Assembly: GCA_005808865.1 (NCBI GenBank)
Contig: SYKU01000088.1
Location: 1-32,270, forward strand
Origin: Acidobacteriota bacterium
Lineage (GTDB): Bacteria > Acidobacteriota > Terriglobia > Bryobacterales > Bryobacteraceae
Direction of reading: 5' to 3'
Length of the DNA stretch: 32,270 bases
Shown here: positions 7,864-32,270 of the stretch, one piece after another
How the letters are laid out: each line of letters starts with the position of its first letter
Numbering within the stretch: the first letter of the stretch is position 1
Made by a program: the position numbers and the translations under genes
Notes under the pieces: model-generated
The model's input: only the letters and a program-made list of their open reading frames with translations
What the model was told of the DNA's origin: nothing
Databases searched by the model: none

Positions 7864-9402
7864 TCATTTGCCCTTCAGCCCGAAACAGTACACCTGCGAT
7901 TCGTAGTCAACGGTGAATATCCGCCCCTCGGCAATCGCGAGTCCGCTGAAGTGCACCCAGCTCGCGATGTCTTTGCCGCTGCTGTACAACTCCTTTCCGG
8001 TTTGCGCGTCGAGAGCGTAGAGTACACCAGGTTGTGTGTTCTGAACCCGGGCCGGTTTACCCCCTCGTTGATTGACGTTCTCGCCCGTGGCGAGCGCGAA
8101 CACCACTCCGTTGGCAATTGCCACGGGATCGGGAACCCTGAGATTCCCGGAAATCCAGGCCGGCTCGAGACTCGGCTTTCCCGTGCGCGCGTCAGTCGCG
8201 AGCTTGAAGGCCATAACGCTCCCGTCGGAGGTTGGTCCGTTGGTCAGCGGGAATTGCGGAGCAAAGCGGGACACCGGACCGTACATGGGAACGTAGATCC
8301 AGGTTTCCCCCCGGTCGTCCCGCCAGGTGGAAAGTCCGCCCCAGATGCCCTGGGAGGTGCTGGCGTTTGCGTCGTTCCCGAGTTTGCCGGCCGAGTAGAG
8401 GGGCGTCTGATGGTCCTTGCTTCCGAGAGAGGCTGCATCGAGCAGGTAAAGAACGCCTTCTTTGGCGCCGCTGGCGAGCAGGTTGTAATTCTTCCAGGAG
8501 AACCAGACGGGACTGGCGCCACCGAAATCGAGGTCGCGGCGGTAGAGTTCGCGCCAGTTGACCGGAGTGAAATAATCGGCAAGTGAAAGGTCGCGGACCG
8601 AAACGGCAACCACGCTATTTGAGTAATCGCCGGTAGCGGGATCGAACGGTCCATCCGCCGTCGATCCGTAGGCTCGGCCATCGGTTCCGATGACGGGACC
8701 GCCGCGGCCCCAGATGCCTCCGGTGTTTGTGTTCGAGAGCAGCATTTGCCGGACCACCGTGTGATGCGGGTCGCGGATATTCATCGAGTAGAAGCCGGAG
8801 AGTGCCCCGCCGCAGCCCTGCGCCAACACCGTGTAGATGGTGTCTTCAACCAGGTTCAGACTCCAGCTCTTAGCGAAAGGCGCCACGAACTGAACCGGCC
8901 CGAAACGCGTCTTCCCGCTGCCTGAGTCGAACCCGTACAGCGCTCCGTCCTCGGCCAGTACGTACAAGATACCTGTCCGCCGGTCAAACGTCGGCGTCGC
9001 GTTAATCCCATTGGGGCAATAGACCGATCCCTGCAACCCGACGTTATTCGGCAGCGCATAAGTCGTAAGCTTTCGCGTCCAGAGGATGTCACCGTCATCG
9101 GTATCGAGCGCGGACACCGTCCCCTGATTGCCAGCGATGTACACCACGTTCCGGACTCCGCGGCTTGTGGAGACGCCGGTCGCCACGACGGGGGCCGTCA
9201 GCGCAGCGAGCTGGAAGGCTTTGTTGTCGATCCTTGTCCGCCACTTCAGTTCGAGGTTCGAGACATTAGCCGTACTCAGGGTTCTCTCGTTCGAAGCCCA
9301 GCCAGTGCGCTGCGGATCATGGCCGAAGGTGGGCCAGTCGCCGGCGCTCACGGCAGCCCGGAGCAAGAGACACAGGAACAACCCTTTCGTTAACTGGGAC
9401 AT
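7864..9402 (-). CDS. PQQ-like beta-propeller repeat protein, secreted
   Basis: Start MSQLTKGLFLCLLLRAAVSAGDWPTFGHDPQRTGW at 9402; propeller repeats (GTVSALDTDDGDILW, GVLYALDAQTGKEL). ORF extension to 9771 is out-of-frame comM remnant. Confidence 0.85.
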   Translation of the reverse strand: MSQLTKGLFLCLLLRAAVSAGDWPTFGHDPQRTGWASNERTLSTANVSNLELKWRTRIDNKAFQLAALTAPVVATGVSTSRGVRNVVYIAGNQGTVSALDTDDGDILWTRKLTTYALPNNVGLQGSVYCPNGINATPTFDRRTGILYVLAEDGALYGFDSGSGKTRFGPVQFVAPFAKSWSLNLVEDTIYTVLAQGCGGALSGFYSMNIRDPHHTVVRQMLLSNTNTGGIWGRGGPVIGTDGRAYGSTADGPFDPATGDYSNSVVAVSVRDLSLADYFTPVNWRELYRRDLDFGGASPVWFSWKNYNLLASGAKEGVLYLLDAASLGSKDHQTPLYSAGKLGNDANASTSQGIWGGLSTWRDDRGETWIYVPMYGPVSRFAPQFPLTNGPTSDGSVMAFKLATDARTGKPSLEPAWISGNLRVPDPVAIANGVVFALATGENVNQRGGKPARVQNTQPGVLYALDAQTGKELYSSGKDIASWVHFSGLAIAEGRIFTVDYESQVYCFGLKGK

Positions 9403-9469
9403 CGTGCAAGAATACCTCAATCGACCCGACGGAAACCTGCCAGTGTCGATCGGCAGGTGTGAGCAGCGC

Positions 9470-9770
9470 TCAATTCCAGCAATTCCGGTCGGGATACCTG
9501 TGCCGCACCGCTTCCGCGATATGCTTCGCGGCGATGTTCCCGGTCCCTTCCAGCTCCGCCGCCGAGCGCGCGCGCCGATAAACCCATCCGGCGGACCGCC
9601 ATTTCGAGAGTCCGCTCGCCTGTGTCGTCGAGACCGCCCAGCTTCCGGATGAGTGCCGAGCATTGTAGAATCCGCGCCGGTGCCTGTACCCCCCGCGCTC
9701 GCTCCACGGATCCGCGAATGTCCGCCCGGGATACGCACGCCCCGTTCCCTCGTTGTTCTGTCTCCCGTCA
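9470..9770 (-). pseudogene. comM: comM (YifB/Mg-chelatase-like) 3'-end fragment
   Basis: By-eye nucleotide match (~85-90%, with indels) to 20350-20690 in intact comM. Confidence 0.85.
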
Positions 9771-11641: not shown

Positions 11642-13192
11642 CTAGCGGGCGAGCGCTTCGCCCGCCGCAACGGGACTAAGAGCGTTCATCTGGCGGAACT
11701 TCTGCATCAACTCGTCAAACTCTATGGCTACCCTTCCCCCTTTCTTCACCCGCTGCTGTTCCCAATTGGAGAGCGCTTCAAGACAAGCATGATCAATGTA
11801 GTCGAGGTCATGAAAATGAACGTGGATCTCTTTGTCGGTGGGAAGCTTCTCCAGCTCATCCGCCAGCTTCGGCAGGCGCATAAAGGTGGCTGAGCCGTAC
11901 AGATGGAAGTCCACGCGGTGAGCGCTCGTCCGTTCGATCCGGATCCCCATATGCGAGAAAGCGTAAAGCAGCTTCACCAGCGACAGTCCAAGGCCCACCA
12001 GGATTCCCGTTAACAGGTTTGTGACAACAATCATGACTACGGTCACCGCGTAGACGGCGACGGGCAGTTTATCGTATTTGAGCAGGCGCCGAATGTTGGC
12101 GGGGTTGACCAGTTTATACCCGGTGTAAACCAGAAGCGCCGCGAGGCTGCTGGTGGGGACCAATTTAAGTACGAAGGGCACGGCCGCCACGAGGACCAGC
12201 AGCCACACGCCGTGAAGAACAGCGGATAGCCGGGTGGCTGCACCAGCGGTAACATTCGCCGAGCTGCGAACAATGACGCCGGTCATCGGAAGGCCGCCAA
12301 GCGCCCCGCAGAGCATATTGCCCATGCCCTGAGCTGCCATCTCGCGATCGTAATTAGTGCGCGGGCCATCGTGCATTTGATCGACAGCGTTGGCGCTTAG
12401 CAGCGATTCCGCGCTGGCGACGAAGGCCAGGGCGAAAGCCGCCAGCGCCACGTCGGTGTTCAATAGCCCAGCGAGCTTGTCTGGCGTCGACCACTGGATC
12501 GCTTGCCACAAGTTCTCCGGGATCTGGATGTACTGCACTGGCAGCTTCCAAATGCCGGCCAACGCACTGGCGAGGCCCACGGCGACAACCGCGCCCGGGA
12601 TCAGTTTCAGCTTCGCCGGGGCGAACTTGTTCCAGGCAAGAAGAATCGTGATCGTTAACACACCGAGGAAAGCCGCAAGATGATGCGAGCTCCCGTCCAG
12701 CGGAAAAACCCCTTTGTAAATAGCTTCCGGAATCGAAATCAGGTTCAGCAGCCCGCTTCCTTTGGGCTTGTCATCCACCATCACGTGGAACTGGCCCGCG
12801 AAGATCAGGACGCCGATGCCCGCCAGCATCCCGTAGATGACCGACGGAGAAATGGCGCGGAACAACTGTCCTGCTCTGCACAGACCCGCGGCGAGTTGGA
12901 TTGCCCCTGCCAATAGCACGATCGGTCCTAGCATCCCGATTCCGTGAGTCTGAATCAGCTCGTACACGATGACCGCCAGTCCGGCGGCCGGACCGCTGAC
13001 TTGAAGCGGACTTCCGGCGAGTAAGCCGACCACAATGCCGCCGATGATCCCGGTGACCAAGCCCGTGACAGGCGGTGCCCCGGAAGCGATTGCAATTCCC
13101 ATGCACAGCGGAAGCGCAACCAGGAAGACTACGATCGAAGCGAGGAAGTCCTTCGCGAAGTCTCCCCGATTCAAATTGAGATGTCGTCCCAT
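11642..13192 (-). CDS. SulP family inorganic anion (candidate bicarbonate/sulfate) transporter with STAS domain
   Basis: DFLASIVVFLVALPLCMGIAIASGAPPVTGL; GxxPMTGVIVRSSANVTAGAATRLSAVLHG; C-terminal STAS-like segment. Confidence 0.92.
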   Translation of the reverse strand: MGRHLNLNRGDFAKDFLASIVVFLVALPLCMGIAIASGAPPVTGLVTGIIGGIVVGLLAGSPLQVSGPAAGLAVIVYELIQTHGIGMLGPIVLLAGAIQLAAGLCRAGQLFRAISPSVIYGMLAGIGVLIFAGQFHVMVDDKPKGSGLLNLISIPEAIYKGVFPLDGSSHHLAAFLGVLTITILLAWNKFAPAKLKLIPGAVVAVGLASALAGIWKLPVQYIQIPENLWQAIQWSTPDKLAGLLNTDVALAAFALAFVASAESLLSANAVDQMHDGPRTNYDREMAAQGMGNMLCGALGGLPMTGVIVRSSANVTAGAATRLSAVLHGVWLLVLVAAVPFVLKLVPTSSLAALLVYTGYKLVNPANIRRLLKYDKLPVAVYAVTVVMIVVTNLLTGILVGLGLSLVKLLYAFSHMGIRIERTSAHRVDFHLYGSATFMRLPKLADELEKLPTDKEIHVHFHDLDYIDHACLEALSNWEQQRVKKGGRVAIEFDELMQKFRQMNALSPVAAGEALAR

Positions 13193-13250
13193 GGATATGC
13201 AATATCTCCTGTTTACGGATTTGATTTTTTAGAATCCCGTGGACGCCGTG

Positions 13251-13886
13251 CTACGCCAAAGCGGGCGTCCTCGCCTGAAGTGGAACAAAACGCGCTTGCG
13301 CCGGATCGAGGGTCCGGACTTCTCCGGATCCGATGTCGTACACCCAACCGTGGAGATTCAGCTGACCTTTCGCCAGCCTGGCCGAAACGGCGGGATGGGT
13401 CCGCAGGTTGTCCATTTGCGCTAGCACGTTCTGCTCGATCATCGCGTTGAGCAGATCCCTGCCGGTAAGGTGCGAGTGGTTTTCCTGAACCACGAACCGG
13501 GCGCTCTCTCCGTAGCGCAGCCACGCAGCCACCGCCGGCATGTGGGCCACGCTCTGCGGGTTCAGTAGCCCCTTCATCGCCCCACAGTCCGAGTGACCGC
13601 ACACGATGATGTCTCTTACCCCTAATGCAAGCACGGCATACTCGATGGTGGCGGAAACTCCGCCGATCACTTCGCCGTACGCGGGCACAATGTTACCGGC
13701 GTTTCGGCAGATAAAGATATCGCCCGGCTTGGTGTGGGTGAGCATGCAGGGATCGATTCGCGAGTCGCTGCAAGTGATAAACAGCGTCTCCGGACTCTGT
13801 CCCGAAGCCAGCCGCTCAAACAGATCGCGGTGCTTTGGAAAGGTCTCCTCCTGAAATTTGGCGAGGCCGGATATTACGTTCTTCAT
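13251..13886 (-). CDS. Beta-class carbonic anhydrase
   Basis: TCSDSRIDP and CGHSDCGAMKG zinc-ligand motifs; RBS before MKNVISGLAKFQEETFPKHR. Confidence 0.93.
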   Translation of the reverse strand: MKNVISGLAKFQEETFPKHRDLFERLASGQSPETLFITCSDSRIDPCMLTHTKPGDIFICRNAGNIVPAYGEVIGGVSATIEYAVLALGVRDIIVCGHSDCGAMKGLLNPQSVAHMPAVAAWLRYGESARFVVQENHSHLTGRDLLNAMIEQNVLAQMDNLRTHPAVSARLAKGQLNLHGWVYDIGSGEVRTLDPAQARFVPLQARTPALA

Positions 13887-13923
13887 TTTCAATTCTCCTC
13901 TTTCGCGGATTCTGACTATGACC

Positions 13924-14220
13924 TCAAGCGCTTGCCACCTTGGCAAACTGCGGTTGCAGAGCGCCAGCCGCCGGCTCGGCGGAAAAACGCTTAATGAAAT
14001 TTGTGTCGAAGTTGCCCGCCTCTGTTTGCTGTTGTGACAGATGGATGCTCCCAGTCCTTGTCACCTCGCTGGATGTATTGCGGATTTCCGCCGCAAACTC
14101 CCCGGCCAGCCTCTGGAGGATCTCAGTGCTCCCCCTGGCGGTGATTCGTCGCGGATGCGTGTGTCCTGATGTCCGCAAGGTGAGTGTCCGCGGAGGCCGG
14201 CGTGGGGCCAACACGGTCAA
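13924..14220 (-). CDS. Small hypothetical ORF upstream of carbonic anhydrase
   Basis: 98-aa ORF on the operon strand; weak. Confidence 0.25.
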   Translation of the reverse strand: MTVLAPRRPPRTLTLRTSGHTHPRRITARGSTEILQRLAGEFAAEIRNTSSEVTRTGSIHLSQQQTEAGNFDTNFIKRFSAEPAAGALQPQFAKVASA

Positions 14221-14519: not shown

Positions 14520-14880
14520 CTTCGCGTAGAAACCGATGACGTGCGCCGAAGACGTGTACGCCGTCCACAACCGCCGCTTCAACCGCGTTCTCCATGGGAA
14601 GCACAAGATTAGGATTCTCCTGCACAGCGAGCAGACCGTCACGGAAAGCGCGCCAGGCAAGCTGCGAACCCGCCATCGAGAGACAACTCGCCGATCAGCA
14701 GATGCTGGTCGAGCCGCGCAATGGAACCCATCGCGCCGAGGATTCCCATCGCCATCCGCAGGTCGAGCACGCCCCAGGGAAACCGAAGCCGGAATTGAGC
14801 AGCGCCGATTTGATGCGCGCGCGGCTCTCCCGAACCGCGGCGGCGTTCCAACTGTTCAAAGTAGCGCGCCGAGCCTGTAT
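14520..14880 (-). pseudogene. comM: comM 5'-half fragment with internal deletions
   Basis: Matches 21398-21785 of intact comM; minus frames read [28 protein letters not shown] and [25 protein letters not shown] in different frames. Confidence 0.9.
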
Positions 14881-17017: not shown

Positions 17018-17926
17018 TCATCCGAAGCGCGGCGGGTCGTGAGGCCTGAAGTCTCGGTCCAGGAGAGCTCGAAGCAGCCCAATGCGTTCTCCGCGCCGTT
17101 TCGCGATCAGCACCGGCATCTTGGCGTGGATCAGCATATGGTCCGATTCGCTGCCCAGCAGGATGCTGGCGGAACGGCTCTTTCCGCGGCTGCCCATCAC
17201 AACCAGATCTGCCATGGAGTCTTCCGCGATCCGTTCCACGGCATGCACCACGTTCGGCCCCTCCACAAAGACCGGGCGCACCGCGATGCCGGAGGTATCC
17301 AGCGGAGCGACGAAGCGCTCGAAGGCTTCCTCCTCGCCCGCGCGCAGCGAAGTTTCGTATTCGGCGGAAACAGCTATCGCCTCGTCGAAGTAGACGTGCA
17401 GCCCGACGCACTCCGCCTTCACGCTCGCGGCAATCCGCGCAGCAATACTGAGCGCGTAGGCCGATGTCTCGGAATAATCGACTCCTGCGACCACGCGCCG
17501 GATCTCGTTCGTCGTGCCCTCGGGGTGCATCCACACCGAGCAGGGAGCCTTCATCGCCAGGCGCCGGGCTAGCGAACGCCGCGCGCCATGCCCCGCAGCG
17601 TGGCCCAGCAGCACCACGTCGGCGGCATTTTCGGCTATCGTCTCCAACAGCCGGTCGATCACGTCGCCGGTTAGCACGCTGCACACCGCGTTCGGCATCC
17701 CGAAGTGCTCCGCAACGGACGCTTCCAGCTGCCGCTGCGCCTGTTCGTAGGTCGTTAGTTCCTGGGTGCCGGGATTTTGGTTCCAGTTGAGTACGCGCAC
17801 GAAACGGCACTCGACCCCAGGGGAGATCCGCGGCAGAACGCGCGCATAACGCAGAAGGCCGGCGTCGCGGGTGGCGCCCCCACCAACCGCGATCACGGCC
17901 CGCTCGAACAGGCGGGTCGACATCAA
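17018..17926 (-). CDS. Tandem-domain universal stress protein
   Basis: RRVVAGVDYSETSAYALSIAARIA; ATP-binding-type GSRGKSRSASILLGSESDHML; 4-nt overlap with SulP stop. Confidence 0.85.
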   Translation of the reverse strand: MMSTRLFERAVIAVGGGATRDAGLLRYARVLPRISPGVECRFVRVLNWNQNPGTQELTTYEQAQRQLEASVAEHFGMPNAVCSVLTGDVIDRLLETIAENAADVVLLGHAAGHGARRSLARRLAMKAPCSVWMHPEGTTNEIRRVVAGVDYSETSAYALSIAARIAASVKAECVGLHVYFDEAIAVSAEYETSLRAGEEEAFERFVAPLDTSGIAVRPVFVEGPNVVHAVERIAEDSMADLVVMGSRGKSRSASILLGSESDHMLIHAKMPVLIAKRRGERIGLLRALLDRDFRPHDPPRFG

Positions 17927-19304
17927 GCTTGCACCGCCGCCGGCTCCTGGACTTCCACCGGCTTATCGAAGAAGCGGTACAGCACTGCCCACAGAACGAT
18001 CGCCGTGACGACGCCGATCAGGAAGTCCGTCAGCACCACCACCACTGCGGTATAGAGCATCAGCGAAATGTGGAAAGCGTTGTGGGCCAGCACCTGTTTG
18101 ACTTCGGACGGCTTTACCATCGCCGATGAAACGTAAAGCAGAATGCCGCCGATGCACGCCATCGGGACCATTTCCAGATAGCTCGCCAGGAAGAGCGCGA
18201 GCAGCAGTTTCAGGATGCACTTGAAGATACCGGCGAGCGGCGAAATGGCGCCCAGTTTGATATTCGTCGCGGTGCGGGCCAGCGCTCCCGTGTGCGGGAA
18301 GCCGTTCATCAGCGGGATGATGACCTGCACCAGGCCCTGTCCCCAGAGTTCCTTGTTCGGGTTGTACGGAATGCCGCGGTTATCTGCCAAACGGTCCGCC
18401 ATGCGCGAGCACAACAGGCTCTCAATGGCGGCCACGATCACGATCGCCACCACGTAATAGACCAGATCTGCCAGCGCTTCTGCCCTCACCGGTAACGGAG
18501 CGGGAGGCGTGAAAACGAAGAAGTCGGTGGGGATGCTGCCGTACTTGTCCTTGATCAGCGAGAAGCCCTTGTCGGCCCACACCGTGCTCGAGACCAGCGA
18601 AGCCGCCCCCAGCGCGATCAGCGGAGCCGGGATGAATACCGACATCCTGAGAATGTACTTGACCATCAGGAAGGTGGCCAGACCGATGATGATCGCATAC
18701 GGGTTCACCTCCCCGAGATTCTCGTAGATTACCGAGGCCTTCTCGATGAAGTGGCTCGGCATCCGCGCCTTCAGGCCCAGAACTTCACCAACTTGCGAGA
18801 GCGCGATCGTGAACGAGATGCCGATAGTGAAGCCCACTACAATAGAGTGCGGCACCTTGGCCACAATTTTCCCGAGCCGCGCAAGTCCGAAGAACACCAG
18901 AATCAGGCCGGAGATTAATGAGGCCAGCACCAGCATGCTGTGGTTGTACTTCGCCATCTCAGCCCCGCGATCACCGGAATGAACGCCGCCGTGGGGCCGT
19001 AGACCTGGTACTTCGAGCCTCCCCACAAGGCACCCACCATGCCCGCCACGGCCCCGCCCGCGATGCCCTGTTCGGGCCGCAGACCGCTGGCCATCGCGAA
19101 TCCCATCGCCAGCGGAATCGCCACCATGGCGACGATCAGGCCGGCCATGAAATCGCGTAGGATGTTGAGCCCGAGGCTGCCTTTAAACAGGTCTTCGTAG
19201 CGTCCGTCGTAAGGGTTGATGTAATACTTCAGCCGGCCAAGCAGGGGCCGCTCATCTGGCCGGGCCGCGGTACCGGAAGCCCGGGCTGTTTGGATCTCAA
19301 GCAT
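17923..19304 (-). pseudogene. SulP family anion transporter without STAS domain, interrupted by one frameshift
   Basis: Two overlapping-frame ORFs (19304-18915 and 19026-17923) are contiguous parts of one SulP; frame joins at VIAG|AEMAKYNHS near CCCC 18963-18966. Could be a sequencing error. Confidence 0.8.
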
Positions 19305-19485
19305 TCGCGAACTCCCCGGAACCGCCGGCTACCAGGGGCAACAGGTCGAGCGAAATCCGGGAATCCGAGCACGCGACGACCAGCGTCTCCGGACTCTGCG
19401 AGGCTGCCAGGGTCTGAGAGAGCTCCCGGTTCTTCGGAAATACGACGTCCTGAAAATGTCGAAGACCTTGGATAATCTTATCCAC
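19297..19485 (-). pseudogene. Truncated beta-carbonic anhydrase N-terminus
   Basis: VDKIIQGLRHFQDVVFPKNRELSQTLAASQSPETLVVACSDSRIS parallels the 13.3-13.9 kb CA; second zinc motif (HxxC) absent; GGAGG RBS before GTG. Confidence 0.85.
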
Positions 19486-19606
19486 TTGCTGTCCTCCTTG
19501 CTCCTTGAGGAAACGTATGCGTGACGTTGAGACGCCCGACCCCACGCAAAGGTGACAGGAAAATGAAGAACCTACAGAACAAGGCTACAAATCCGGCCGG
19601 AGTTTA

Positions 19607-19948: not shown

Positions 19949-20283
19949 GTCACCGCTATCGGTATCGAGCGCGGACACCATGATTGCCCGCGATGTACGC
20001 CACGTTTCCGTTACGTCCGGTCCCCTGGTCCCTTCAATGACTCTGCGGTTTGTGGAGGCGCCAGTTGCCACGACGGGAGCCGTCAGCGTAGCGGGCTGGA
20101 AGGCTCTGCAGTCGATCCTTGTCCGCCACTTCAGTTCCAGTTTCGAGACGTTCGCCGTACTCAGGGTTCTCTCGTTCGAAGCCCGTCAGTGCGCTCGGGA
20201 TCATGGCCGAAACGTGGCCAGTCGCCGGCGCTCACGGCAGCCGGAGCAAGAGGCACAGGAACAACCTTCGTTAACTGGGACAT
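19945..20283 (-). pseudogene. 5' fragment of the PQQ-like propeller gene
   Basis: Nucleotide match to 9084-9402, with frameshifting indels. Confidence 0.85.
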
Positions 20284-20352
20284 TGTACAAGAAAACCTCA
20301 GTCGACCCCGGCGGGAACCCGGTCCTTGTCGATCCGCATGTGTGAGCAGCGC

Positions 20353-21876
20353 TCAACTCCAATAATTCCGGTCGAGACTCCTGTACTGCACTGCTTCCGC
20401 AATATGCTTCGCGGCGATGTTCCCTGCCCCTTCCAGATCCGCCGCCGTGCGCGCGACCTTCAGAATACGGTCGTGCGCGCGCGCCGATAAACCCATCCGG
20501 CGGACCGCCATTTCGAGAGTCCGTTCGCCTGTGTCGTCGAGGCCGCACAGCTTCCGGATGAGCGCCGAAGGCATCCGCGCATTGTAGAATCCGCGCCGCT
20601 GCTGCACCTCCCGCGCTCGCTCCACGCGTCCGCGAATGTCCGCCGAGGACTCGCACGCCCCGTTTCCGCGGAGTTCCTTGTACGCCACCGCCGGCACTTC
20701 CATGTGAATGTCGATGCGATCGAGCAGCGGTCCGCTGATCTTCCCCAGATACCGCTGAATGATCCCCGGCGTGCAGCGGCATTCGCGGGTCGTATCGCCA
20801 TAGAAACCGCACGGACACGGATTCATCGCCGCAGCGAGCATGAAATTCGCCGGGAACGAAAGCGTCATCGCGGATCGCGCGATGGTCACCGACAGCTCCT
20901 CTAGCGGTTGGCGCATCAACTCCAGGACATTGCGCGGAAACTCGGGCAGTTCATCGAGAAATAGCAATCCGTGGTGCGCCATGCTCACTTCGCCCGGACG
21001 CGGCGTCCCAAGTCCGCCGCCGATCAGGCCTGCGTCCGAGATCGTGTGATGCGGCGAACGGAACGGCCTCTCGCGCAGCAGTCCCGCGCCGCCCGGCAGG
21101 ATGCCTGCGATGCTGTGAATTTTCGTCGTCTCGATCGCTTCGGCGAAAGTCAGCGAGGGCAGAATCCCGGCGAGGCGCTTCGCAAGCATCGTCTTGCCCG
21201 ATCCCGGCGGCCCTATCATCAGAATGTTGTGCCCGCCCGCTGCCGCGACTTCGAGCGCCCGCTTCGCGCTCCCCTGTCCGCGCACGTCGCGGAAATCCGG
21301 CGCGGTGGATTCCCCGGCCTGTAATTCGGGCGCGGCGCGCTTGATTGGCTCGAAGGCCCCGGGCTTCGCCAGCAACTCGACGACTTCGGAGAGATGCCGC
21401 ACGCCGAAGACGCGCACGCCATCGACCACCGCCGCTTCCGCCGCGTTCTCCATCGGCAGCACGAGATTCGGAATGCCCTGAGCAAGCGCGCAGACCGCCA
21501 CGGAAAGCGCGCCGCGCACGCTGCGAATCGCGCCGTCGAGAGACAACTCGCCGATCAGCAGATGCTGGTCGAGCCGCGCAATGGAACCCATCGCGCCGAG
21601 GATTCCCATCGCCATCGGCAGGTCGAAGCCCGCCCCTTCTTTCCGGACGTTCGCCGGAGCCAGATTGATGGTAACTCCCTTGTTGGTGGGGAAACCGAAG
21701 CCGGAATTGAGCAGCGCCGATTTGATACGCTCGCGGCTCTCTCGAACGGCGGTGTCCGGCATTCCAACTGTTACAAAGTCGCGCGCCGAGCCTGACGGGT
21801 ACATGTCGACTTCGACATCGATCAAATGAGCATCGATGCCGTAAACGGCGGCGCTGCGTGTCTTGAACAGCGCCAT
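20353..21876 (-). CDS. comM: YifB/ComM family Mg-chelatase-like AAA+ ATPase
   Basis: 507 aa; Walker [29 protein letters not shown] Walker B; CxCG...C zinc-like motif; [19 protein letters not shown]-terminus. Confidence 0.95.
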
Positions 21877-31660: not shown

Positions 31661-31766
31661 GTTCGCTGACTCTCAATCGTCTTCCCGGCGGCGGGAAAAC
31701 ATTGCTATTGCTAATGATAGTATACCGCCGATTTCGAGCGTGGCTTCCACTGCTGCCCGCTCTGCC

Positions 31767-31802
31767 CGTCCGTCCCGTCCGTCCCGTCCGTCCCGTCCGT
31801 CC
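31767..31802. repeat. 9-bp tandem repeat, (CGTCCGTCC)x4
   Basis: Four perfect copies read directly. Confidence 0.95.
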
Positions 31803-32041
31803 AGCCGCTCGTTTTCCGATGCTCCGAAGCTTGACTCCGGGTCGAGAATCGTTTCCCTGCCTGTTGCCGTTGATAGCCTAACCTCATTTGAGACTGGGAC
31901 CAGGAAAACATCAGCGGCCACGGGCTGGACGCAGGGACCGCCTCCCTTGCTGCCCCGGGATACATCTCCGTGAATGACCAGGCCTATCATGATCGTAGCT
32001 GCCTCAATCACAGGGCGGCATGGCCGCAACCAAAAGATGAA

Positions 32042-32108
32042 GGCGTTCCCACTATCGTAGAGGATGTTTGTTGTTCGACGACAAGAATCCAATCGATAGG
32101 AGAACGCC
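32042..32108 (+). promoter_or_regulatory. Long inverted repeat sequestering the RBS of the edge ORF
   Basis: GGCGTTC-CC-(ac)-TATCG pairs with CGATA-GG-(a)-GAACGCC; SD AGGAG 32098-32102 lies in the right arm. Confidence 0.7.
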
Positions 32109-32270
32109 ATGAAAGAGTTTACGGCAAAATTCGGGGATCGGATCAACGGGGTGCTATCCGGGTTTGACCGGCTGGTATTTCGAGGCCACCTGCGAGGGAT
32201 CTCGTACGTGGCGGGGATGAAGGGGTACCTATGGGCGAATCAGGTGCTGAACAAGGAGTTCGGCGCGCAT
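32109..32270 (+). CDS. N-terminus of uncharacterised, possibly mobile-element-encoded protein (truncated by window end)
   Basis: MKEFTAKFGDRINGVLSGFDRLVFRGHLRGISYVAGMKGYLWANQVLNKEFGAH, open to end; good SD. Confidence 0.65.
   Translation, partial: MKEFTAKFGDRINGVLSGFDRLVFRGHLRGISYVAGMKGYLWANQVLNKEFGAH

Follow-up and report, generated by a model that had tools for sequence, protein, structure and literature searches.

A hairpin-ended insertion sequence with a candidate Rep_trans-like tyrosine transposase and a covarying stem over its ribosome-binding site

The window is the whole 32,270-nucleotide stretch of DNA that was analyzed. It is contig C15 of a 5.7-Mb assembly in 493 contigs, and it stops at 32270 within an open reading frame. 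An insertion-sequence-like element starts at 32012 and is cut by the contig end at 32270. The features at this locus are as follows.

32009..32011, + strand: CAC target trinucleotide left of the element (core CAC^RG), from 74 left junctions and from empty alleles in relatives
32012..32270, + strand: left 259 bp of the insertion-sequence-like element; shared sequence starts here in C15, C326, C261, and related genomes
32012..32034, + strand: left-end hairpin, AGG-GCGGC-ATG-GCCGC, followed by conserved AACCAAA
32042..32057, + strand: 5' arm of the stem that occludes the ribosome-binding site (RBS), GGCGTTCCCACTATCG, from fold and covariation
32058..32065, + strand: -10-like hexamer region between the two arms, here TAGAGG/GAGGAT
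32071..32084, + strand: nested hairpin TTGTT/GACAA in the loop, from RNAfold
32094..32108, + strand: 3' arm of the stem, CGATAGGAGAACGCC, from fold and covariation; it contains the Shine-Dalgarno (SD) sequence AGGAG (32098-32102), and the ATG is at 32109
32109..32270, + strand: first 54 codons of a transposase candidate of about 520 aa (MKEFTAKFGDRINGVLSGFDRLVFRGHLRG...), with a nearly invariant D-R in GFDRLVFRG

Other repeats are present elsewhere in the window. About 600 bp at 9154-9758 is duplicated 10.9 kb away at 20039-20676 (direct repeats D1, D2, D4, D5, D7, and D9; 84 to 95% identical). The duplicated segment covers a portion of a ComM-like Mg-chelatase gene as well as the beginning of a PQQ-type protein region, both named by eye. 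A ComM-like gene fragment at 14626-14840 is repeated 6.9 kb away at 21485-21752 with up to 98% identity (D3, D6, and D8), which suggests past local rearrangement. A perfect 9-bp tandem repeat (CCCGTCCGT, 4.2 copies) is located at 31765-31802, shortly upstream of the element. Two pairs of SulP-like transporter and carbonic-anhydrase-like genes (11642-13946 and 17923-19545) were recognized by eye from translations, each near a UspA-like gene, also named by eye.

The left end of most copies is a hairpin, AGCGCGGC-N3-GCCGCAACCAAA. The copy in the window reads AGGGCGGC. Its GCGGC-ATG-GCCGC hairpin at 32015-32027 lies upstream of the RBS stem and is better conserved than that stem. This hairpin shows where the element truly begins on the left and is absent from the sequence-only reading of this DNA. 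Copies from Planctomycetota carry paired changes in it (GCGGGC/GCCCGC). Subfamily 2, with about 30% protein identity, also carries paired changes (CCGGC/GCCGG) and has the same AACCAAA. The hairpin is absent in L029 and displaced in L043, L045, and L051. In these three (L043 1142, L045 1644, and L051 145) it is found 200 to 550 bp upstream of the gene, compared with the usual distance of about 100 bp, and the intervening sequence is unexplained.

At the right end, an imperfect hairpin (type TCTTYGC..GCRAAGA) precedes ..GTAGTAC. The complete copies contained 1,716 bp (L016), 1,710 bp (L027), 1,712 bp (L028), 1,721 bp (L074), and 1,745 bp (L024). Each element encodes one gene of about 520 aa. 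No terminal inverted repeats were found on comparing copies, and the two ends are dissimilar. The comparison of copies and flanks proposed earlier thus gives an element of 1.71 to 1.75 kb with defined ends and no clear target duplication.

The sequence-only reading had taken the open reading frame for a member of a possibly mobile, multicopy family common in acidobacterial genomes, and all three parts of this claim hold. In its own assembly, the identical left end was retrieved on three unrelated flanks (contigs C15, C326, and C261), and the 3' end of the gene with the right end was retrieved on two (C348 and C289). At least two further copies were found at contig ends. The interior of the element is missing from the window's bin, where the ends alone are visible. 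The flanks differ between copies; a single-copy gene in a conserved context was not what was found. A degraded IS6-like transposase was seen by eye near one left-end copy (L003 about 1010-1500; G000:C261).

The 54 visible residues retrieved 47 relatives from the genome collection. Many of these are at contig ends, as expected because such repeats break assemblies. The left-end motif was counted 32 times in G019, 10 times in G021, 3 times in G001, and 2 times in the window genome, and most relatives contained none. The reversed pattern, used as a control, occurred 0 to 1 times. A strong match was found in 25 of the 237 genomes of the window's taxonomic family. Full-length relatives (about 516 to 533 aa) were found in metagenome-assembled genomes (MAGs) labeled Acidobacteriota, Planctomycetota, Magnetococcales, Acetobacteraceae/Rhodopila, Myxococcales, Poribacteria, and others. 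Distant relatives were found on plasmids of Rhodococcus, Mycobacterium, Caballeronia, and Paraburkholderia. None were found in the phage records and IMG/VR that were searched.

The plasmid pOLGA1 of Paraburkholderia phytofirmans OLGA172, a named and fully sequenced strain, contains a 30%-identical relative annotated as an ArsR family regulator (L187 4924-6560; NZ_CP014580.1). Its left end is of the same type (CCTAAGCCGGACGAGCCGGAACCAAACAGG), and its right hairpin is GTCTTC..GAAGAC. In G213:C53 (L158/L096), a complete copy runs directly into the left end of another. The second copy stops after about 45 codons and is joined to a BshC-like gene, as a 3'-truncated product. A more distant group with 16 to 20% identity (L065, L070, L079, and L066) shares a downstream hairpin type, CGAGAACAAAATTCTCG then TTACGCTTCGCATAACGG. 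It is probably another mobile branch.

Many gene-less derivatives with the same ends were also retrieved. They range from 35 to 210 bp, with copies of 210 bp in G019 and of 199 to 207 bp in G021. The 35-bp and 43-bp derivatives contain the left hairpin and right tail alone. Multiple copies, identical ends, unrelated flanks, and an encoded candidate mobility gene are what identifies an insertion sequence, and all were found here. From these sequence comparisons, mobility of the element is near certain. The element can be taken as established as an insertion sequence, of a family that appears undescribed as judged against Pfam, NCBIfam, PHROG, and PDB.

The insertion site was read from 74 distinct left junctions and 36 right junctions, with search patterns that excluded the flank on either side. 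On the left, position -3 was C in 71 of 74, position -2 was A in 57 of 74, and position -1 was C in 59 of 74 (T in 13); positions -4 to -8 were near random. On the right, the first base was A in 25 and G in 8, and the second was G in 27. The left junction reads CAC^AG, the right end reads TAC^RG, and the target reads CAC^RG. They share one motif, which suits a single nicking enzyme. Three copies in tandem repeats show the site restored. The joined flanks continue the target repeat in register in L016 (CACAGAGGCAC|AGAGGACACAGAG), L028 (CCACAGAGACAC|AGAGGCACAGAG), and L139 (GGCCACGGATGGCCAC|GGATGGG). In L161, a second element begins exactly at the right end of the first (..GTGGTAC|AGCGCGGC).

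Empty sites were searched with concatenated flanks. One usable site was retrieved, the right flank of C348, matched on one flank; left-flank matches were to chromosomal relatives without a clear junction. In C348, the element interrupts an aminotransferase-like gene. The occupied site reads TAC|AGGGATTCGAAGG, and the empty alleles in G001 and G005 contain uninterrupted codons, CAC|CCGGATTTC and CAC|AAGGACTTC. The C348 site differs in length by 1 nt from its G001 and G005 homologues, the position is ambiguous, and the left half is unassembled.

No target duplication beyond the shared AC was seen at the joined flanks. The shared AC leaves the placement of the junction ambiguous by 2 to 3 nt, and there may be a 2-bp (AC) target duplication. 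In a check for a 2-bp or 3-bp duplication, L134 would fit (GCCC left, CCCC right) and L019 and L145 would not. The L134 derivative (G019:C44) has CCCC and not GTAC at its right end and GCCC in its left flank, which looks like a joint change of end and flank.

The gene could in principle be an immobile chromosomal regulator with an attenuating leader. Its product has a predicted C-terminal winged helix that resembles transcription regulators, and the relative on the plasmid carries an ArsR-family annotation. Every copy has unrelated flanks, the ends are exact and conserved, the gene is multicopy, and its distribution is patchy. The junction data contradict an immobile regulator, and we consider it scarcely credible.

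The RBS stem was described exactly by the sequence-only reading, including the arm coordinates, the SD within the 3' arm, the ATG at 32109, and the nested hairpin. RNAfold of 32035-32125, proposed there as a check, gave -32.2 kcal/mol compared with -17.9 +/- 3.1 for shuffles (z = -4.67; 0 of 200 shuffles were as stable). A stem that closes just ahead of the start codon is also present in homologues from Acidobacteriota, Planctomycetota, Pseudomonadota, Myxococcota, and others. In all cases its 3' arm overlies the RBS and stops at the start codon.

Pairing over the seven outer pairs was counted in 36 sequences whose arms had been anchored by hand, with GGCG and the start codon as the anchor points. 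Hand anchoring was used because the MAFFT alignment of the leader misplaces the arms, as loop lengths differ. L011, which is without the 5' arm, was omitted. Pairing was found in 95.6% of cells compared with 88.1 +/- 0.9 in shuffled data, and 25 cells were changed on both sides compared with 7.4. The covariation score was 0.264 compared with 0.116 +/- 0.016, and none of 500 shuffles reached either the score or the paired percentage. Positions 5 to 7 of the stem contain T-A/C-G and C-G/T-A/G-C exchanges, and sliding the arms destroys pairing. The stem is present in homologues beyond chance, and a lack of covariation, named beforehand as evidence against it, was not what was found. A search of Rfam with the leader gave no match.

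A -10-like hexamer is present between the arms. In relatives it reads TAGGAT, TATAAT, or TATACT, and in most copies it is 43 to 53 nt before the start. TATAAT-likeness at this offset was greater than in all 1,000 mononucleotide shuffles (36 loci). A strict sigma-70 scan of the window retrieved no promoter. It is plausible that the stem damps translation of transposase from read-through mRNA. This silencing role gains support because of the covariation and because of the -10-like hexamer between the arms. The earlier comparison with the control of IS10 and IS200 expression appears apt, by analogy.

The stem might instead work mainly as DNA, as an end structure bound by the transposase, and not as a regulator of translation. 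Transposases of hairpin-ended elements bind subterminal hairpins, as is established for IS200/IS605, and the RBS stem is less than 100 nt from the left end. The non-autonomous copies have dropped the stem but retain both the first hairpin and the right end. These derivatives show which end DNA is conserved, and the long RBS stem is not part of it. Subfamily 2 is also without the stem and keeps the first hairpin. Together with the fixed position of the 3' arm over the RBS up to the start codon and the hexamer between the arms, these observations make a mainly DNA-level role rather unlikely. A damping role in translation is preferred.

The gene product matches no known transposase family, as the earlier reading had supposed. 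No family protein searched had a significant match in Pfam, NCBIfam, PHROG, or PADLOC, and NCBIfam includes transposase models. Current annotations are hypothetical protein or ArsR regulator. The best match of the family profiles in a sequence search of PDB was a MarR regulator (E=0.9) over the winged helix. An AlphaFold2 model from 30 aligned sequences had a pLDDT of 89.3 and a pTM of 0.83, and a model of another member's catalytic domain had a pLDDT of 88.4 and a pTM of 0.84. Foldseek retrieved no match in PDB at E<=0.001. Among viral models, it retrieved the TATA box binding protein (TBP) of Terrestrivirus (E=3.4e-4, probability 0.99) with low TM-scores of 0.2 to 0.3. Weaker viral matches include TFIID of Marseillevirus and B263R homologues, which are TBP-fold proteins (TM 0.2 to 0.3), and the viral matches include A0A2N9QVX7. 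Weak helix-turn-helix matches cover the C-terminal winged helix.

The catalytic domain was aligned for 24 sequences, with residues numbered as in L016. The invariant residues are R21, G150, P161, N169, N190, E247, F254, K325, Y327, R339, E341, and an L. The near-invariant D20 adjoins R21 on strand 1. In the predicted models, K325-x-Y327-x-K329 and L338-R339-x-E341 are on strands in the order of Rep_trans, the invariant tyrosine is on the strand adjoining the RxE strand, and the winged helix follows. The family residues follow the order of the Rep_trans motifs N', I, III, and IV. The counterpart of motif I is E247 without RxD, and motif II and the E of motif III are not evident. From the predicted fold and the conserved motifs, the enzyme is probably a Rep_trans-like TBP-fold tyrosine endonuclease. 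PF02486 had no match in Pfam scans of nine family proteins. Its best match in the window's own genome was to an unrelated contig (E=0.2), and it was found in 0 of 396 Acidobacteriota genomes, with a positive B. subtilis control.

A very divergent HUH transposase of the IS91 or IS200/IS605 type, with its histidine motif and fold unrecognized, would have the same architecture of hairpin ends, no terminal inverted repeats, a short target motif, and small REP-like derivatives. The TraI relaxase is also among the weak PDB fold matches (9f10, E=0.2). Membership in the HUH group fails because no invariant or nearly invariant histidine is present in the 24-sequence alignment of the catalytic domain. 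The invariant tyrosine is predicted on a strand next to the RxE strand, as in Rep_trans, whereas it is on a helix in HUH enzymes, and no significant Pfam match was found. We consider an HUH enzyme quite unlikely. Traits of DDE insertion sequences were not found either: the ends are dissimilar, the joined flanks run on continuously with no duplication of greater length, and the predicted fold is different.

An integrated rolling-circle replicon, as a plasmid or phage remnant, would also fit a Rep-like enzyme, a hairpin resembling a double-strand origin, and the plasmid locations in Rhodococcus, Mycobacterium, and Paraburkholderia. It is very improbable in view of the single gene in 1.7 kb and the absence of relatives from the phage and IMG/VR searches. 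Tens of copies, 35- to 210-bp derivatives, and exact ends at CAC^RG are the behavior of a transposon.

A hairpin-ended transposon with a Rep_trans-like tyrosine nuclease, and with a stem that damps read-through expression, is the best overall explanation, and we consider it likely. The catalytic residue would be Y327 in KxYxK, with D20, E247, and E341 as putative metal ligands from the predicted fold and motifs. The transposase would recognize the hairpins in single-stranded form and would cut at YAC^RG in the target as well as at the left junction and right end. Transposition would probably proceed via a single strand, which may be moved by peel-and-paste or rolling-circle transposition. Read-through mRNA would carry both arms, and the RBS stem would keep it from yielding transposase. 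A promoter between the arms would give element-initiated mRNA without the 5' arm, which would be translated.

The known chemistries of transposases are DDE/DEDD, HUH tyrosine, serine or tyrosine recombinase, reverse transcriptase, and Cas1. We lean modestly toward a new catalytic class, in which a Rep_trans-like TBP-fold tyrosine endonuclease without HUH moves hairpin-ended DNA into CAC^RG in many bacterial phyla. It would be convergent with IS200/IS605 and IS91 and would have its own REP-like derivatives of 35 to 210 bp. If so, a Rep_trans-like nuclease would add one more transposase chemistry and a new transposon class. It would be a second link between plasmid rolling-circle replication and transposition, independent of HUH enzymes. 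It would account for AGCGCGGC-N3-GCCGCAACCAAA, a repeat that is common in environmental genomes and lacks annotation. It would also give a testable function to a family annotated as hypothetical protein or ArsR regulator. The covarying leader would illustrate, across phyla, how a transposon may silence its own read-through expression.

Among known systems, the Rep_trans group (PF02486; pT181-type Rep and MobT relaxases) shares a TBP-like sheet, predicted here, and hairpin substrates. The order of motifs on the strands, predicted here, is also alike: an acid comes early, R/K-x-Y-x-K comes late, and R-x-E is on the strand after it. TBP is the only DALI neighbor of Rep_trans catalytic domains (PMC4797284). 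In RepDE, the nucleophile is Y191, flanked by R189 and K193, and the metal is bound by D46, D142, and E214, with R212 nearby (PMC4797284). The present family differs in that the PF02486 profile does not match it and E replaces RxD in motif I. The known Rep_trans enzymes serve in plasmid or phage replication or in the initiation of conjugation, and no description of one as a transposase was found. Open PMC literature on Rep_trans or TBP-fold transposases yielded replication, conjugation, and general mobile-element papers only. In the parts available of a review of rolling-circle enzymes, transposition is described for HUH enzymes and not for Rep_trans.

The archaeal Rep-Arvir (DUF7845), a Rep of viruses and plasmids, has a TBP-like fold and a winged helix and was found via the viral TBP entry A0A2N9QVX7 (PMC13107129), which is also a Foldseek neighbor here. 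Both combine a TBP-like catalytic domain and a winged helix downstream of it, as predicted for the present family, with a tyrosine and two acids (essential in Rep-Arvir) and a hairpin, which in Rep-Arvir is the origin. Rep-Arvir differs in belonging to archaeal replicons and not transposons and in its KHYYM motif, and the likeness seen is in predicted fold rather than in sequence. IS91, ISCR, and Helitron elements (HUH Y2, rolling-circle) resemble the present family in having a Rep-like transposase, in lacking inverted repeats and target duplication, and in forming 5'- or 3'-truncated and tandem copies. The present family differs in having a single invariant tyrosine and no HUH or Y2 motif.

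In the RNA-level control of IS10 and IS200, as may occur here, read-through transcripts would fold the start region away and limit expression from outside promoters. For IS200, PMC3733652 cites control of transposase translation by a hairpin. The present stem differs in covarying across phyla and in the promoter-like hexamer between its arms. The earlier comparison with IS200 holds for architecture, with hairpin ends and no terminal inverted repeats, but not for the enzyme. IS200/IS605 elements (HUH Y1, peel-and-paste) and the RAYT/REP REPtrons share subterminal hairpins, the lack of terminal inverted repeats, a short target motif beside the left end, and REP-like non-autonomous copies. The present family differs in its enzyme of about 520 aa without HUH, with a predicted TBP-like fold and winged helix, in its CAC^RG target, and in the AACCAAA after the left hairpin. 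REPtrons are the nearest analogue in architecture.
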